DNA of 64,000 nt, from NCBI RefSeq assembly GCF_029633865.1, contig NC_079211.1, positions 7,594,415-7,658,414 on the forward strand, given 5' to 3'. The stretch's first letter is position 1; the number at the start of each line of letters is the position of its first letter. The translations under genes were made by a program, and so were the position numbers. The DNA is from Lampris incognitus. Its lineage: Eukaryota > Chordata > Actinopteri > Lampriformes > Lampridae. Positions 10,775-61,950 of the stretch are shown piece by piece. The notes under the pieces are model-generated. The model did no database searches. It worked only from the letters and a program-made list of their open reading frames with translations, and had not been told where the DNA came from.

Positions 10775-10945
10775 AAAGAAAATCTCTTTCTTGCACTTTT
10801 ACTTCAGCACTGGTTTTGCTCTTAGACGCTTGTTTAGATGCACTTATGACCTCTGATGACTAGTAGTTCTCCTGGTTTCCGACGTGAAATGATGCACTTA
10901 CTGTAAGTCGCTTTGGATAAAAGCGTCGGCTAAATGACTGTAATG
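10775..10945 (+). mobile_element. LINE/SINE 3' tail of L2 type
   Basis: It contains GTAAGTCGCTTTGGATAAAA followed by GCGTCGGCTAAATGACTG, a tail motif common to fish L2-type LINEs and the SINEs that use them. The tail passes straight into TGTAATG-type repeats, as expected for L2-type 3' ends. Confidence 0.75.
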
Positions 10946-20983: not shown

Positions 20984-21804
20984 ATGGTTGTGGCTAGATG
21001 GGGCACAGCCGCGGACGAAAGTGATGAAAAATCTCACTGGGGGTATTTCGTTGCTATGGCTCTAGCTAGCCTAGCTAACCTCCTGAGAGACATGGCGGCA
21101 AATTCAGAAGAAGCCCACGAAGGCTATTTTCACAGTTTCCCTTCGCATAGATCTTTTGAGGGGATTTAAAAAATATATATGAGGAGGACACACTGACCAA
21201 ATTCATTTTTTCAACAAAAGACAAGGCTTTTGGTCAGGAGGGAGTTTTCATAGCTAGCTAACGTTAATCATCTAGCTAGTAAAAAAAATGATCTTGCTAG
21301 TTAGCATAGCTACCGATAGCTTAGCTAACGTTACAAATGTGACGTTACGTTAGCTAACGTTGGCTACGTTAGCTAAGTGGATTTTTAAGATGTACGTTAG
21401 CTAGCTAGGTAGCTACATCACACAGTTCATGCTTTAATTTCATTTCACTAAGGTGCGCTACATAGCTAGCTAGCTAGCTATTTGAACCTATATAGATAAC
21501 TGTTAATGCTAATTATACAGACTGGCCATGCATGTTGAAGAAAATAGGGATGATGGTAAGTTATGTAATATTAGCTAACGTTAGCTAGCTAATGTAATGA
21601 CAACAGTAGGCCACTGATTTACTCTAGTTAACTCACTCTTACAGACTAATTCATCCGACTCATCATTCAATCTGGCTTTAAAAACCAAAGTCCAAACTCG
21701 CGGTAGCTCAGGAGGTTAGCTAGGCTAGTTATCGTCACAGCAACGAAATACGCCCGGTGTGATTTTTGCATCACTTCCGTTCGAGGCTGTATCCCATCTA
21801 GCCA
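20984..21804. repeat. Large inverted repeat with an AGCT/TTAGCTAACG-rich core
   Basis: About 105 bp at 20984-21093 (GTGGCTAGATGGGGCACAGC ... TAGCCTAGCTAACCTCCTGAG) recurs as reverse complement at 21698-21804 with moderate divergence. The roughly 600-bp spacer is full of self-complementary GCTAGC and TTAGCTAACGTTA words. The right arm ends exactly where the LTR element at 21805 begins. Confidence 0.7.
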
Positions 21805-22341
21805 CGTATCAAATTCGAGGGGCAGCCGGGAACTGCTGCAGCCGGGATGCGAACCCGGGTCGGACTGCGCTAACCAGTCGACTGAAGGGTTCAACCCGTT
21901 AGCCAACCAGCTAGCGAGTCTACACATTCGTGGTCGTTACACTACCCCCACTCCTTCGGGAACTGCATCACCGCGCTTCAGCATACCAGCTCCCTCACGC
22001 CTCTGGGCACAAGCGCTTCCGATGGCCTCAAGGTCTCACCATCCCCAGAGATGGAAAAACCCGGTCCAGGAAGTAAAAACCCTAACCGTGTCTTTACTCC
22101 ACCCATGTACCAAACCATCAGATTGCACTGACTAGTTTCCCAAATCAGCTGGTTTAATACACGGATGTAGTAAAGACACGGTTAGGGTTTTGACTTTCTG
22201 GACCGGGTTTTTCCACCTCTGACCGTCCCACTTCTGACACCAGTGTAGCGAATTCAGGGGCAGCTGGGAATCACCGCAGCCGGGACACGAACCCGGGTCG
22301 CCCGCACCACGGAGCGGGTCTACTCATTCATGGTCGTTACA
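21805..22341 (-). mobile_element. Miniature LTR element (TRIM-like), family B, with tRNA-like LTR
   Basis: Read on the minus strand, a 5' terminal repeat of 98 bp (22341 to 22244) starts TGTAACGACC and ends GAATTCGCTACA. One base later comes TGGTGTCAGAAGTGGGA (22242-22226), complementary to the 3' end of tRNA-Leu(CAA) including CCA. The internal part of about 210 bp (minus the nested MITE) ends in a purine tract GAAGGAGTGGGGG. A second terminal repeat of 137 bp (21941 to 21805) follows. It contains an A-box-like TAGTCGACTGG-type segment and the B-box-like GGTTCGCATCC. The 5' copy has lost about 40 bp around the A box. No matching target duplication is visible. Confidence 0.75.
22046..22221. 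mobile_element. hAT-type MITE nested in the TRIM-like element
   Basis: It begins CAGAGATGGAAAAACCCGG and ends CCGGGTTTTTCCACCTCTG, with inverted arms of about 60 bp (both contain the AACCCTAACCGTGTCTTTAC block). The flanks ACCATCCC (22038-22045) and ACCGTCCC (22222-22229) are an 8-bp target duplication with one mismatch. The empty site matches the uninterrupted copy near 61700. Confidence 0.88.
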
Positions 22342-24008
22342 GATTGATAGGGTTTAACAAGAGGCATGTAGTCGTGATCACTGCCATATGTTTCAACCTT
22401 TCCTCCTAGGTTTCTGTATCTTGGATGCTGGTGTTGGGGAAACAGGGATACTGGCTGTGCTGAAGAGCTACAGGTACGCTGACCCTGTCACACTTTAATA
22501 TTCGTAAGTCAAGTTTGCATTCCAGGAAACTCTACTTTTTTCCGTTCTTGCAGTCACACACAATTTCACAGCTGCCCACAAAGTTCTCAGAATATTACCT
22601 AAAAAGAATTAAAAGCGCAATATGAGATATCACAAAGAACCTACTCCTTTTTGACTAATAAATATCAATGGGGAGAAGGTTGAACATATTTAGCCACATC
22701 TCCACCACCTCCCTGGATGTGAGATGAATCTTGTGGTTAAAGGCCCACATACGCCCACCCAAAAGCCCCATCTGGATGGAGTGTGCAACTGTCGAAGCGC
22801 GGGGGTGTGAACCGGGTTCTTGCGGTGACCTTCGCTGCTCGCTGGGTTGTGGGTTGCTTGTTCCATTTCACTTTTGCACTCTCATTATTGCTAATCGTTT
22901 TCCTCCACCGGGATGCATGGTTGAACGGGTAATCGGATTACGAGTCTGTGCCATTTGTTTGAAGTTCATTCCATCTATTCTTGGCAGTTTTGTTGGTATC
23001 GGTAAACTACGCTGTGTGACTCTTATTGACCAAACCACTCACCCACCACACATCTACTACCTTCTGGATAGGACTGCCAGGTTGCTCGTGAAAACTGCAA
23101 ACAGCATGGGAAATGTACAGTGTGATCACAAACGTAAATCATCCCTCTTTGTGCAAACTGAGCCTCGGGCTTTTCATTGTGACGGTCTGAGCTGAGATTG
23201 AGGATTTTCACTAGTCGAATACAACTCACTTTTCATGTGCATGTGGATAGTCACATTTGCACAGGATGAGCTTCTCTTCTGTCCCTTAGGCAAAGATGAG
23301 TCCTGTTTCGCCTCCTGATCCGCAATGCCTCAACAATGTAAAATCCCGTGATTGAAAAGATGAAAGGGGGGGGGGGACGAAAACACCGTCAGGGGTATTT
23401 ACCGATGGTGATGATACATTTTGTGGTTTGGCTCAGATATCCTATGAGCTGTAAGAGCTCAAAAATAACTTGAAATAAACCCTGCTTATGTAGATGACAT
23501 GAGACACAGCCTTGATACTGTGGTCTGGCCTTCAAGCTGCAACCCTGAAGATTTACATTCAAACGACCTTTTGAAACCTTCTATTCAAGACAGTAGCTGA
23601 TCCTCGAATATCCATATCGCAAACAACGGATCTCTGAAATTTGGAGTCACATGCCAATGCAATAGCCAGAATCTCCACAGGGGTTTGTTAGAAAAACAAT
23701 ATTGAAGATCTTCAGGATTGTAGGCTTTAAGAAAGGAGAAAAATACAATATAGGTAAATAAATAAATGGATTGCATTTATATAGAGCTTTTCTAGTCTAC
23801 CAACCACTCAAAGCGCTTTTCATTGCAATAGCATTTGCATCAAGTATTTGAAAGTAATTTTGCTATAGTTATGAGTGCAATTGAAACCACACCTTTCAGT
23901 ATTTAAAACTGCCATGGTACAGAAAACCACAGCTACCAAATACTGCACTGGAAAAGAGAAAGCATATTTGAGACAATACTTTACTTATTTTTCGTCATCA
24001 GTGACTGT
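22342..24008. other. Unassigned DNA
   Basis: No gene is supported. GCATTTATATAGAGCTTTTC near 23771 is a short dispersed fish repeat motif. A long spurious frame at 22731-23195 shows no family features. Confidence 0.35.
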
Positions 24009-26030: not shown

Positions 26031-26212
26031 TCAATGGCCAGATGTGTCTTATGGCGACATCTACAATTACATAGGAACTAGGCTACATTTTCAACAAATG
26101 TTTGCATTTTATTCAATTATTGCTTTTTACTGGATTACACACGACTGCATACAATGATGCATGATATACTACTAAATTAAGGATGACAATAATAATGTGA
26201 TAACAATGCTTG

Positions 26213-26577
26213 TGTAAACTACTAATAAGACACGTTAGCCCCTAGCTAACGGGTCTGACCCTTTAGCCGAGCGGTTAGTGATGTCGCCTTGTGGTGCAGT
26301 CCCTCTCGTATCGAATCCCGCACCGGGCAAGAAAATAACCGGTGGCAGTGGTGGGATCCGGAAGTGTGCAGATCCTCAGAAGTCTCTTCGGAGCGCGGGA
26401 ATAACAAAGCGCAAGGGCGCGCTTCCGGGAGAGGGTGACGACTGTAAACTACTAATAATACACGTTAGTCCCTAGCTAACGGGTCTGACCCTTTAGCCGA
26501 GCGGTTAGTGACGTCGCCTTGTGGTGCAGTACACCCCGTATCGAATCCCGCACCGGGCAAGAAAATAACCGGTTACA
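26213..26577 (+). mobile_element. Miniature LTR element (TRIM-like), family A, complete
   Basis: A 365-bp element flanked by CTTG on both sides (26209-26212, 26578-26581). Terminal repeats: 26213-26342 (130 bp) and 26443-26577 (135 bp), starting TGTAAACTAC; the right one ends GGTTACA. The left lacks the last TTACA. Inside each LTR lies TAGCCGAGCGG (perfect A box) and GTATCGAATCC (B-box-like), spaced as in a tRNA, and a GTTAGC/GCTAAC hairpin. After the left LTR, GGTGGCAGTGGTGGGAT (26341-26357) is complementary, with one mismatch, to the end of tRNA-Leu(AAG). The internal part of about 100 bp ends in GGGAGAGGGTGACGAC. It has no coding capacity. Confidence 0.82.
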
Positions 26578-26794
26578 CTTGCATTTTAACTGGGTAAGGG
26601 AGACCGGGGTAGTTACCCCTTGTTTCTAGGAAAGATAAACAAAATTGAGCACGTGACCAAATATTCAGGGGGGAGGGGCCATTTTATTATTTTTAATGGA
26701 TAAAAATACATGTGGGTTTGAAGAATGTGATCCCATTCAGACAGGTTTAGCTCACTGTGGAATTCCATACAGCCACCGGCTCAACCTGCGCCAG

Positions 26795-27087: not shown

Positions 27088-30000
27088 TTTTTTTTTCTTA
27101 CTTTATTGATACTTCAAATACATTCAAACAGAGCAAAATAGACACACGAGACACCACAAAAACAATAGATAGAAGATAAAAAAAACAATAAAGACACAAA
27201 AGAGAAAGTAAATTATAAAAAATAAATAACTGAAAAAAATCAGTAAATAAAGGTGAGATCATATTTTATGTAAACAGATTCAGAGATTTGCAAATGTTGA
27301 TCGTTTTTAAAGCCTTTGTGTTTTTTGAAGTAGAGATTGTCCTTATATATTGTTCAACTTCTCTTTTAAGTGCAAAGAGTTGAGGCTTTCTGTTGGAGAA
27401 TTTACATTTATGTATATGAAACTTGGCTAAAAATAAAAGCATATTTATAAAAAAGAATGCATCACCATCTTTGTGATTAAAATTATGAAAACCAAAAATA
27501 ACATTCTTATAGTAAAGGTGAAAATCAGAAAAGACAAAATCAGCGATAAACTTGTGGAAGTCTCTCCAGAATTTATAAGTGAACTGACATGACCAGAATA
27601 AGTGGACACGTGTTTCAGGATGCATTTGGCAAAAAGAACATTCAACATCTATATCATTTTTAAACTTTGATAAATATTGTTTTGCAGGGTAGAATTTGTG
27701 TAGCAATTTAAATGAAATCTCTTTGACTTTGTTTGTTAAAAAAAATCTTTGTGGTAACGACCAAACTTTCTTCCATTCAACATCATTCACAAAGTTGTTC
27801 CAAAAAAATGTTGCTGGTGGGACGGAAACTAGGCTATCCTGAAACATGGCTCTTATTCTGGAGTTCAGAAGTTTACATGATGAGGAGCAGACAGTACCAA
27901 GAGGAGACTGTGACACATCAGGAGGGTTGAATGATATGAGAGGAGAGCTGCCAGAGGACCTGAATAACATGCACAAACCAGAAGGGATAGCATCAAATAC
28001 CACCGAAAATTCTCTAGGCGTTACTGGTACATTATATCTCATTAGAAATTCAGAGTAATTATATAGCAGCCCATCTTTTTTGAACAATTGACCAACTAAA
28101 ACAAGACCATTGTTAAACCATCTGTCCAAAAACAATGTTTTGTTCTTATAAACAATATTACAGTTGTTCCAGATGAAACAATTCTGTGGAGAGAAATTGT
28201 GTTTGTATATCAATGCCCACGCTAAAAGGACCTGTTGATGGAAGTGAGAAAGTTTCAGGGGTATTTTTGGAATGCTATAATTACATAGCAGCAGGAAATT
28301 AAGGCCGCCTAAGTTTGAGAACACATGATGTGAAATGAAATTCCAGATAGATGTGGGATTTTTCAAATATTTTTTTATCCAGTTTATCTTGAAGGTATTG
28401 TTGAGTGCACCAAAATCAATAAAATTCCAACCACCTTTGTCATATGCGCTTAAAGTAACAGATTTTCGTAAATAGTGGGTTTTGTTTTTCCATAAAAAAC
28501 TGTTTAACATTTTATCAATTGATTTGCAGATTGTGTTATCGACATGTAAGGACTGAGCAGCATAGGTTAGACGAGAGATTCCTTCTGCCTTCAAAAGCAG
28601 AACTCTACCCCTTAGAGACACGTCTCTCTGCAGCCAGTGATTAAAGATTTTTTGGGACTTTTCTATAATAGGGCTGAAGTTTACAGAGCTTCTGGATTGC
28701 CTATCTTTAGTGATTTGAATACCGCGGTATGTTACAGAGTCTTTCACAGGAATCCCATGAATTGAGGTCGCCAAACAGTCTTTAACAGGCAAAAGTTCAC
28801 ATTTATTAAGATTAAGGAAAAGGATTAAGGAGAAGGACTGGACACTGTTGATAGCGACAGAAACTTGCGAGGCATCTCTGAGAAAGAGAGCCGTGTCATC
28901 TGCCAGCTGACTTATAAATATTTCTCTGTCAGCTACGACCATACCCTTTAATGAACTGAGTTTAATATGTAAATTAAGGAGTTGTACAGAAAGAAGAAAC
29001 AGATACACTGAAAGGGGGCACCCCTGCCTCACTCCACGTTTCAAAGAAAATCTTGGGGAAGTACCACTAACAAGTTTTATGGAACTATTACTATTGAAAT
29101 ATAAAGTATGAACTGCATTGCAAAAGGATTGACCAAAACCAAATTTCTTCAAAGCAGTAATAATAAAATCATGTTCTAAGGAGTCAAAGGCCTTATAAAA
29201 ATCCAAAAGAAGAATAAAACTCTCATCCTGCACAAATTCTGGGTAGTCTATTATATCTAAGATTAGTCTTGTGTTATTTGAAATATGACGATTCTGCATA
29301 AACCCGAACTGACACTCATCAATAACAGTATCTAAAACAGGTTTTACTCTATTTGCAAGAATCAGCGCTAGTATCTTGTAATCGTTGTTCAATAAGGAAA
29401 TTGGTCGCCAATTATCTAAGAATAAGGGGTCCTTTCTAGGTTTGGGAATCAGGGTGATTAGGCCTTGAGATAAAGTGGGAGGGAGCGCACCCCTATCAAT
29501 ACTTTCCTTAAAGACTTCCACAAGAAATGGGGCTAAGCTGTCAGAGAACTGCTTATAAAGTTCGGCAGTAAGGCCATCTGTACCAGGAGACTTATTAACT
29601 TTTAGACACTTTATAGCATCTGCGACCTCATTCAGAGAAATTGACCTATCACAGAGTTCACTGTCAGCCTCACTCAGCTGAGTAATATTATCTATGGAGT
29701 TAAAAAAATCAGAAGCAGCTTGAGGGCAATAACTGGAAGAGTATAGTTTACTATAAAAATCAGCACAATACTTTGCTATGGTATTCTTATCGTTAGAAAT
29801 TATCCCATTAATATTTAGTTGTAGAATAGAGTTAATGCTGGATTGGTGTTTCTCAAGTCTGAAAAAATATGCAGAGTTTTGCTCTCCTTCTTCAAGCCAC
29901 TTTTTGCGAGACCTAACAAATGCTCCTTCAGCTTTGCGCTTATAAATCTCATCCAACCTATGCTGCAAGTCAATTAGTTCTGCCTTATCATAGTCGTTGA

Positions 30001-30849
30001 GAGCCTCTTTTGGTTTGGATGTTAAAGATGTAATCTTATGTATTGTTTCATTCTCGTCAGCCCTTCTTTTCTTTGCCAAACAAATGCTATATTTACGAAA
30101 AAATTTGCCAAGTTCATATTTCAAACGCTCCCAGTTGTTACAAAACATATTTTCAGCCCGAGCTTTGCTCCAGTGAAGCCTTATTAAACTATGAACTTCA
30201 GTAACTACTTCCTTATGCTCAAGGATAGTATTGTTAAGCTTCCAATATGACGCTTTAGCATCAGAAGACGATGACAAAGAGATATTTAAGTGAATTGTTT
30301 TGTGATCTGAAAGCGGCGTAGGAAAAATGTCAGTTTTAACTTCTTTCAAGTCTTTTGAAATAAGCCAATAATCAATCCGTGAGTGACTGGTTTGTGTCTT
30401 ATTGCACCATGTGCATCCTCTTTGAGCTGGATGAGAATCCCTCCATGAATCTAATAAATCAAATCTTTGTGCAAACAACTTTACATGTGAGTTAGAGAAG
30501 TCTAAACCCCTAGAGGGCCACCTATCCATGCAATTATCAAATACAACATTAAAGTCTCCACCAAAGATTATAAAAGAACCTGGATATTTGGACAGCCAGT
30601 GCAGTAAACGCTCTTCCAACCTGTCAAAATAAAGATTATTCTCTGTTTGACTGTTAAATCCATACACATTGACTAAAATATAGATAGAGTGTGCAACCTC
30701 AAGCATCAGAATAATATAATGACCGTCTTTATCACAGTCAGAGATTAAGATTTTTCCATTAAATCTGTTTTTCAGTATACAAACACCAGCGTAACGCTCT
30801 GTACCATGGGACAACCACAAATCATTTCCCCACTGCGACCTCCAGAAAA
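27088..30849 (-). mobile_element. L1-like non-LTR retrotransposon, 5'-truncated
   Basis: The 3' end is at about 27088 with AATAAA followed by an A-rich run (seen as T-rich at 27088-27097 on the plus strand). The 5' end, near 30849, falls within the endonuclease coding region. The flanks TTCCGGTGGTCTATGA (27072-27087) and TTCCGCTGGTCTGTGA (30850-30865) agree at 14 of 16 positions and may be target duplications. Confidence 0.85.
27266..30848 (-). CDS. L1-like ORF2: endonuclease, reverse transcriptase, zf-RVT
   Basis: An open frame of about 1,190 codons runs without a stop from the truncation point to TAA at 27266. It begins inside the apurinic-type endonuclease (FWRSQWGNDLWLSHGTERYA, GGDFNVV near residue 100, SRIDYWLIS, PLSDHKTI). 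The reverse transcriptase follows at about residues 400-700: GLITLIPKPRKDPLFLDNWR, LLDFYKAFDSLEHDFI, RGVRQGCPLSVYLFL and QLADDTALFLRD, with the catalytic ADD intact. The C-terminal zinc-binding region (CSFCQMHPETRVHLFWSC) is also intact. About the first 60 endonuclease residues and any ORF1 are missing, so this copy is not autonomous. The start shown is the truncation point, not an initiator. Confidence 0.93.
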
Positions 30850-30879
30850 TTCCGCTGGTCTGTGAGGCACACAGTAACG

Positions 30880-31140
30880 ACAGCTCCGAACGCAGACTTC
30901 GCTTCGGCCAATCGGGACACGCGTTGATCGGAGGTCAGTTTACGAAAAAATGACTGCTTCCGGGGTAAGAAACGCAAACGCTTTAAAATAGCCGACCAAG
31001 TTCCGGTTCAGGTCTATTTGCCCGGTGGGACCCGCGTGGCGTCAGCGTGCTGTCGAAGACGCAGTTTACCTCCATTGACGAGACGCAGCTACGACGGCTT
31101 GACTCAAAGTAGGTAGACGGCTTAAATTAGTTACTTAACC
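30880..31140 (+). promoter_or_regulatory. CpG-rich, promoter-like segment
   Basis: Contains GGCCAATCGGGACACGCG (CCAAT box) and many CpG steps, and no repeat is recognised. It could hold an upstream non-coding exon or promoter for adad1, about 8 kb upstream, but nothing links them directly. Confidence 0.2.
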
Positions 31141-31360: not shown

Positions 31361-31495
31361 TGTAAACTACTCATAAAACACGTTAGCCCCTAGCTAACGG
31401 GTCTGACCCTTGAGCCGGGCGGTTAGTGACGTCGCCTTGTGGCGCAGTACACCCCGTATCGATTCCCGCACCGGGCAACAAAATAACCGGTTACA
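31361..31495 (+). mobile_element. Solo LTR of TRIM-like family A
   Basis: 135 bp from TGTAAACTAC to CCGGTTACA, about 90% like the two LTRs at 26213-26577. It has an A-box-like GAGCCGGGCGG and B-box-like GTATCGATTCC. No second LTR or internal region is present. The flanks are AT-rich and give no clear duplication. Confidence 0.85.
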
Positions 31496-61330: not shown

Positions 61331-61477
61331 ACCATGCTGCCCACCTCTAACCTAACCTGACTAAGCATGCCTAAAAAGACATTTGCATGCCACGGTATGC
61401 TTGGACTGACCAAAACAGCTTGCTTTGTGGGAAATGTGCTAGTAGACACAAAATATGATGGGAGATCACAGAAATAG

Positions 61478-61578
61478 TGTAGCGAATTCGGGGGGGCAAT
61501 CTGGGAGACCGTCGCCACAGCCGGGACGCTAACCCGTGTCTCCCACTCCGCAAGCGACAACGGTAACCAGTCGACTAA
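61478..61578 (-). mobile_element. Family B LTR, inverted, 5' part missing
   Basis: The reverse strand ends GAATTCGCTACA at 61478. It contains GGGTTAGCGTCCCGGC and the A-box segment TAGTCGACTGG. It meets the next element head to head at about 61575, where both share GGTCGG. Confidence 0.75.
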
Positions 61579-61950
61579 GGGGTCGGGCTCTTGTCGAAAG
61601 GTTGTCGCTTGGGGTGCAAGAGATACAGGTTCGCGTCCCGGCTGTGGCGGTTGCCGGGCTGCCCCCCCCCCCCGAATTCGCTACGTTGGTGTCAGAAGTG
61701 GGATCGTGAGACCGTGAGGTCATTGGAAGCGCGTGCGCCCAGAGGCGAGAGAGAGCTGATATGCTGAAGCGCGTCCCGAAGGATTTTGGGGGGGGGGGGT
61801 GCATGGATAAGTAGACACGTTGGTCCTTGGGTAGTGGGTCGGACCCTTTAGTCGGCTGGTTAACGTTGTCGCTTGCGGAGTGAGAAACACGGGTTCGCGT
61901 CCCGGCTGTGGCGACGGTTCCCGGGCTGCCCCCCCCCCGAATTCGCTACC
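61575..61950 (+). mobile_element. Miniature LTR element (TRIM-like), family B, second copy
   Basis: LTR1 (truncated, about 61575-61685) ends GAATTCGCTACG. PBS TGGTGTCAGAAGTGGGAT at 61687-61704 is a perfect 18-nt complement of the tRNA-Leu(CAA) 3' end. The internal part of about 95 bp ends in GAAGGATTTTGGGGGG. LTR2 (61800-61950) starts TGCATGGATAAG and ends GAATTCGCTACC. Both LTRs hold GGTTCGCGTCC (B box); LTR2 has TAGTCGGCTGGTTAACG (A box). Confidence 0.78.

Follow-up and report, generated by a model that had tools for sequence, protein, structure and literature searches.

A Helenus-type miniature LTR family with tRNA-His-like LTRs in Lampris incognitus and its likely Ty3/gypsy helper

Plant Cassandra elements are gene-less LTR elements that carry a 5S-like Pol III promoter within the LTR. 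TRIMs with tRNA-like LTRs have been described under the name Helenus (Kojima 2024, PMC10886601); they occur in animals, in fungi and in a single plant, and their hosts include zebrafish and other ostariophysan fish, sturgeon and paddlefish, and coelacanth. Animal Helenus elements generate 4-bp target-site duplications (TSDs) and vertebrate ones use tRNA-His, tRNA-Leu or tRNA-Lys as primers (PMC10886601). Little is known about the helpers of TRIMs whose LTRs are Pol III-like: Cassandra has no known helper, animal Helenus elements are linked to Gypsy by PBS likeness only, and one fungal Helenus family has its internal part in common with a Copia element (PMC10886601). Among the matches listed in our literature search, the only other mention of Helenus or TRIMp3 was a 2026 meeting report (PMC12859917). 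The element considered here lies in a 64,000-nucleotide stretch of the L. incognitus genome (the window). We judge it quite probable that this element belongs to a Helenus-type TRIM with tRNA-His-like LTRs, present in many copies, that is copied in trans by a helper, element H, through the cycle proposed below.

The element (26213–26577, forward strand, as are all its features) is 365 bp long and gene-less, in agreement with an earlier note on this DNA. Two direct repeats (26213–26343 and 26443–26573; 131 matched bp, 95% identity, seven differences) enclose a 99-bp internal region (26344–26442) with a primer site and purine tract but no gene; the element belongs to a family, family A, whose internal region recurs genome-wide. 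The duplication CTTG that the note had reported can indeed be read from the sequence on both sides (26209–26212 and 26578–26581) and has the 4-bp length typical of other copies. The 3′ LTR (26443–26577) runs TGTAAA...GTTACA; the 5′ LTR (26213–26343) is without the terminal TTACA that the 3′ LTR and most other copies have, so that the proposed TG...CA ends hold for the 3′ LTR but not for the 5′ LTR, which lost its last bases with the deletion of GGTTACATT. The primer binding site (PBS; 26341–26357) matches tRNA-Leu(AAG) at 16 of 17 positions, as stated in the note. The polypurine tract (GGGAGAGGG, 26427–26435) is likewise present but does not abut the 3′ LTR, from which it is separated by TGACGAC. 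A second family-A LTR in the window (31361–31495, forward strand) is probably a solo LTR, with flanks ATAA and ATAT that agree by eye at three of four positions. A 1222-codon open frame adjoins the element on the reverse strand (27269–30934), its start resembling by eye a LINE endonuclease/RT protein, and a UnaL2 LINE 3′ element lies at 10890–10943 (Rfam RF00436, 57.9 bits).

The host genome (1.48 Gb) was searched with the window element, yielding 1641 first-look candidates; 40 were scored and 39 further copies fetched, a biased sample, since these copies were chosen by similarity to a window copy that itself carries a junction deletion. Whole-length matches among the 40 scored measured 363–378 bp, the family-A element being about 374 bp long. 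Every one of the 39 copies has at least two LTRs, and 33 are delimited exactly by TGTAAA...GTTACA, six deviating at one end. Three LTRs occur in four copies (L030, L031, L043 and L045), and further unit borders in four others (L010, L039, L041 and L047). The earlier note had suggested looking for full elements with duplications of 4–5 bp: exact 4-bp TSDs flank 20 of the 39 copies as compared with 35 of 1482 cross pairs, seven more being off by one base, while exact duplications of 3, 5 and 6 bp were seen in 0, 0 and 1 copies, respectively. By position, the target is mostly C-T-A-G (20 sites). Searching with the LTR alone gave 30 loci including the window copy, of which 13 were multi-LTR copies and 17 single LTRs; 12 of the latter have exact TSDs, two of these (L051 and L053) with the same flanks, and two single LTRs (L060 and L074), which continue into sequence resembling a PBS, are perhaps not genuine solo LTRs. 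The exact LTR/PBS/internal junction of the TRIM (48 nt) occurs 852 times genome-wide. Exact searches with a 22-nt LTR stretch gave no match in viral or in prokaryotic contigs.

The usual family-A junction consists of LTR...GGTTACA, one T and then TGGTGGCAGCGGTGGGAT, which matches tRNA-Leu(AAG) at 18 of 18 positions. The window element represents a past insertion whose PBS is damaged, the missing nine bases (GGTTACATT) comprising the end of the LTR and the start of the primer site. The junction was usual in 22 of the 39 copies, lacked the same nine bases in eight and another nine in three, and was otherwise altered in six, mostly by single-base changes. The 9-mers GGTTACATT, GGTGGCAGC and GGTGGGATC resemble one another; this likeness would invite slippage, and the two recurrent 9-bp deletions fall between them. 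It is doubtful that the common U5/PBS deletion marks an inherited subfamily, because the 3′ LTRs retain the deleted letters and the query itself selected for the deletion.

Within the 5′ LTR, an A box (TAGCCGAGCGG, 26264–26274) precedes a B-box-like segment (GTATCGAATCC, 26308–26318, 9/11); all 11 letters of the former are identical in 93, and the latter is identical in 100, of 120 distinct LTRs. The 3′ LTR has the same A box at 26494–26504 (11/11) and the same B-box-like segment at 26538–26548 (9/11), and their joint score was reached in 4 of 20,000 dinucleotide shuffles. Both boxes are hence found in each LTR, as the earlier note had proposed; the class II tRNA spacing that it assigned to them has to be abandoned, the A-to-B distance being 44 nt in both LTRs, which is that of class I tRNAs. 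No A/B pair was found on scanning the LTR at 31361–31495, where the A box is altered. When the LTRs were compared with 22 vertebrate tRNAs, with letter shuffles as control, tRNA-His(GTG) scored best, with 39 for the 3′ LTR, 35 for the 5′ LTR and 37 for the third LTR (shuffles reaching these scores: 0, 3 and 2 of 1000; shuffled best-of-panel mean about 22); with the third LTR, tRNA-Asp scored nearly as high (35). The tRNA-His match takes in the anticodon-loop letters TTGTGG; in the 5′ LTR the tRNA-His-like stretch spans 26270–26318, limits transferred from the alignment of the 3′ LTR. A foldable tRNA within the LTR was also considered and dropped: the Rfam tRNA covariance model, a check proposed in the note, gave no match, even at E values up to 10, in any of the window's three family-A LTRs, and ARAGORN predicted no tRNA anywhere in the window. 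The tRNA resemblance is one of promoter boxes and sequence, not of a foldable tRNA.

Family A thus has two LTRs within less than 1000 bp and no protein gene, a PBS for a tRNA 3′ end and a polypurine tract at the ends of its internal region, an animal-type 4-bp TSD and LTRs that include a tRNA-derived segment bearing an A and a B box, the B box at 9/11 and the covariance model unmatched. This is the design of Helenus, notably of the fish families related to LTR-11_DR, with tRNA-Leu among the three vertebrate primers; zebrafish Helenus elements likewise reach thousands of copies, and Helenus elements form tandem arrays (PMC10886601). The fish elements were aligned there with tRNA-Val, whereas the tRNA-Val score of family A is at the shuffled level. 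Family A is consequently a further Helenus family or one already described, an assignment based on its design. The earlier note is therefore confirmed in part as to its observations and supported in part as to their interpretation: the element is a TRIM with tRNA-like LTRs, as genomic copies with paired LTRs, a PBS, a purine tract and TSDs of 4 bp show, but the design is not undescribed, as the note had thought possible, Kojima having reported it in fish as well.

A second family with tRNA-like LTRs, family B, is represented in the window at 21783–22343 (reverse strand) and 61470–61950. Its LTRs (TGTAACGACC...TTCGCTACA) have GGTTCG-type B boxes, and its PBS, TGGTGTCAGAAGTGGGA, fits tRNA-Leu(CAA). 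The LTRs are distantly related to those of family A, with alignment scores of 49 and 63 as compared with 31 and 37 for the best of 1000 shuffles. Just upstream of the A box, both families have a palindrome of the type GGGTCNGACCC / GGGTTGAACCC, which, judged by eye, matching changes on its two sides have preserved. The internal region of the first family-B copy contains an inverted-repeat element of about 118 bp (22076–22193), which matches Rfam mir-4796 at 43 bits, under the gathering score of 90. A mosaic locus elsewhere in the genome (L095; G000:C15, near 35284592) reads LTR-B / internal-A / LTR-A / internal-B, joined at the LTR/PBS borders.

The sequence TTTT occurs in only 1 of the 120 distinct TRIM LTRs and 1 of the 39 whole copies, and AATAAA or ATTAAA in 2 of the 120 LTRs. 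Among the helper LTRs of the 28 complete hybrids described below, all 28 contain TTTT and 27 contain AATAAA, and a complete helper has AATAAA in its 5′ LTR but not in its 3′ LTR; the helper LTR looks like one of the Pol II type. As the TRIM is devoid of a TTTT terminator, a Pol III transcript could cross the whole element and end in flanking DNA, where many SINE transcripts stop. Family A shares with Cassandra the formation of tandem arrays and, as predicted here, a Pol III-type promoter inside the LTR of a gene-less element; it differs in being tRNA-like rather than 5S-like, in the scarcity of T-runs and in its animal-type 4-bp TSD. Alternatively, the tRNA-like stretch may be a fossil devoid of promoter function, the TRIM being transcribed by Pol II. 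This would be consistent with a B box that is imperfect in most of family A, with the unmatched tRNA model and with the conservation of the boxes, which shows no detectable excess over the remainder of this young and uniform LTR (of 134 shifted windows, 31 do as well). On the other hand, the near absence of polyadenylation-type signals and T-runs sets the TRIM LTRs apart from helper LTRs, the A box is mostly exact, class I spacing is kept in both LTRs, and the same design is found across many phyla (PMC10886601). A fossil appears a possible but somewhat doubtful reading, and the use of Pol III by family A remains plausible.

The likely helper came from the internal-region query (1903 candidates, 40 scored; 39 loci, L078–L116, were used, a few of them also among the earlier 39). 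Four of these copies (L081, L089, L109 and L112) have a foreign 5′ LTR of 254/255 bp, TGTAACC...CTCGGTTACA. The foreign LTR represents a family in its own right (516 candidates, of which 40 were scored, at 98–100%), and a complete copy at G000:C2:118179138-118184621 has two LTRs of the 255-bp type, differing by 0.4%, and the TSD GAAG/GAAG. In the middle of this one copy, three separate pieces match RT, RNase H, and the zinc-binding and core domains of integrase, in the Ty3/gypsy order and between LTRs accompanied by a PBS, a polypurine tract and a TSD. Its U5 tip and PBS are identical to family A over 27 nt, the PBS being letter for letter that of the family-typical TRIM junction; leader and purine tract differ. 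We consider this Ty3/gypsy element, H, to be the likely helper of the family-A TRIM.

The exact junction between the tip of the helper LTR and the TRIM internal region (47 nt) occurs 76 times genome-wide (reversed-pattern control, 0), that is in 76 of 928 exact junctions (8.2%, arrays being counted more than once). We examined 44 junction loci, namely 40 from the list of 76, taken as the first 20 on each strand, and the four copies named above, two of which (L081 and L089) are within the list of 76, while L109 and L112 deviate from the pattern by one base. Twenty-eight loci are complete at both ends, and in these the helper LTR is at the 5′ end and the TRIM LTR at the 3′ end; the other 16 were set aside, 12 being truncated on one or both sides, two having another 3′ side, one being A/A and one other/other. 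By eye, only the beginning of the 3′ LTR is present in the hybrid L112, and next to it stands a short copy of that beginning in inverted orientation. The 28 complete hybrids show exact 4-bp TSDs in 17 cases, TSDs off by one base in three and off by at least two in eight, as compared with 13 equal pairs of 756 cross pairs and 0–1 of 28 at shifted positions. The 3′ flank begins with TTGG in six hybrids, and five of these continue, by eye, into another primer site; when these five run-on cases, all among the eight with at least two mismatches, are excluded, exact TSDs are found in 17 of 23 single-unit hybrids. The 5′ flanks are mutually unrelated (0 of 378 pairs alike). The exact TSDs imply that these elements were already hybrids when they inserted. 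The opposite join, from TRIM internal region to helper LTR, was found neither genome-wide (0 exact matches to a 32-nt pattern, shorter and hence easier to match) nor among the 39 internal-region copies (0/39); the join from TRIM internal region to TRIM LTR gave 138 exact 17-mers in the fetched loci, some of which overlap.

Unlike LTRs with this polarity point to plus-strand strong-stop DNA that was made on a helper minus strand and then annealed to a TRIM minus strand at its PBS end, a transfer usually regarded as intramolecular; the switch point falls inside the 27 shared letters. The same product, TSDs and junction would be obtained if extrachromosomal TRIM and helper cDNAs recombined as double-stranded DNA over this stretch before integration. 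We regard such recombination as unlikely, since homologous recombination would have a match of merely 27 bp to act on, which is very short, and since the reciprocal product, TRIM LTR with helper body, should be equally frequent. None was seen: the TRIM-LTR/helper-leader pattern gave 0 matches, but this zero is uninformative, as the same leader was found only once even behind the helper's own LTR. It is rather improbable that one founding hybrid, made of helper LTR, TRIM body and TRIM LTR, multiplied in place of many independent formations. The junction is admittedly the same in all hybrids, and the star-like divergence of their helper LTRs (median 3.1% from one another, 1.6% from the complete helper) is also expected from a single founder; however, reverse transcription would equalize both LTRs, the helper-type R region would have no partner in the TRIM 3′ LTR, and an indel that splits the hybrids 12 versus 16, with both states also present outside hybrids, suggests more than one helper lineage. 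We hold it to be very improbable that the hybrids arose only once a helper and a TRIM copy were already inserted, through ectopic recombination or gene conversion involving the two: both families are numerous and have 27 nt in common at the junction, and 8 of the 28 complete hybrids have no matching TSD, but exact TSDs link the helper 5′ end to the TRIM 3′ end in 17 of the 28, where recombination between two loci would leave two target sites, and a single polarity is seen, so that the TSDs already largely refute this possibility. Finally, tandem duplication of a SINE, which the earlier note had named as the outcome that would overturn its reading, may be dismissed as practically refuted despite the tandem arrays, since SINEs are single units with a 3′ tail, longer and variable TSDs and neither LTR pair nor PBS, hallmarks that family A does not show, having instead a PBS, a purine tract, 4-bp TSDs and single LTRs with TSDs.

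Transfer of strong-stop DNA between molecules, which we prefer to these alternatives, would fit into the following cycle. Pol III would start upstream of the A box of the 5′ LTR and read through the terminator-less element into the flank; the hybrids suggest that the TRIM RNA may then enter helper particles, either alongside helper RNA or several molecules at a time. Priming would be by tRNA-Leu(AAG) at a PBS that, in its family-typical form, is identical in sequence to that of the helper. The plus-strand strong-stop DNA, consisting of the LTR and the copied 18-nt PBS, would land on the minus strand of another molecule, and the product would derive its 5′ LTR from one template and its internal part and 3′ LTR from another, as the TSD-bearing hybrids with a helper LTR at the 5′ end only suggest. 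The helper integrase would accept the tips of both LTRs (TGTAA...TTACA) and insert the product with the 4-bp duplication that is observed. The mosaic with family B and the tandem arrays might arise by the same PBS-guided joining.

If strong-stop DNA moves between molecules, the two LTRs of an ordinary TRIM copy need not be alike. In copies picked by similarity to the window copy, a biased choice for this comparison, the divergence within LTR5/LTR3 pairs was 5.00 as compared with 5.16 for permuted pairs (n=36; 266 of 2000 permutations as low), and 5.10 as compared with 5.05 when only copies with exact TSDs were taken (n=20). In copies picked by the internal region, the values were 16.12 and 16.10 (25 pairs of 30 loci, some LTRs being partial), and 7.71 and 7.91 for exact TSDs (n=7). 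The two LTRs of a TRIM copy thus resemble each other no more than LTRs paired at random do. This fits inter-molecule transfer but only lends it support, because a star-like burst of simultaneous insertions explains it equally. LTR positions 27, 70 and 94 show shared polymorphisms (L009–L047 and L078–L107) that are often discordant between the two LTRs of one element; hot spots, conversion and template swapping are candidate causes.

Normal reverse transcription makes both LTRs identical, as stated by Sabot and Schulman (2007, PMC1950507), whose Triticeae complex elements are fused LTR elements with TSDs that originated by template switching during reverse transcription. The outer LTRs of those elements are alike, whereas the ends of our hybrids come from unrelated families, with a helper LTR at the 5′ end and a TRIM LTR at the 3′ end. 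In one classic retrovirus study (Hu and Temin 1990, as cited in the review PMC12789967) the second transfer was reported to be always intramolecular; HIV-1 mosaics have been argued to show that intermolecular second-strand transfer is possible (Cappy et al. 2017, PMC5651808). As in the HIV-1 case, transfer between two templates is deduced from mosaics; there, the evidence came from polymorphisms of related genomes, whereas here an autonomous element and an unrelated TRIM contribute two visibly different LTRs. Recombination has also been described for Onsen (PMC5668417). Among the matches listed in searches on intermolecular plus-strand transfer and LTR swapping, most subscription papers being outside their scope, no title or abstract opening mentioned helper/TRIM hybrids with unlike LTRs. 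A study of soybean by Du et al. reportedly deals with LTRs swapped between autonomous elements and their non-autonomous counterparts, which would resemble the exchange between helper and TRIM.

On balance, we lean towards the view that intermolecular transfer of plus-strand strong-stop DNA is routine for this TRIM and its helper, so that the two ends of one insertion may come from different RNAs; this would account for the helper LTR at about 8% of exact TRIM junctions (76/928), for the TRIM's own LTRs being no more alike than those of different copies and, by the same joining, for the tandem arrays. While the link of animal Helenus elements to Gypsy has rested on PBS likeness (PMC10886601), hybrids with TSDs single out a specific helper by sequence analysis alone, and any genome can be screened in this way for TSD-flanked insertions that have a different LTR at either end. 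If the proposed transfer is true, the dating of such insertions by LTR–LTR divergence would be invalid.
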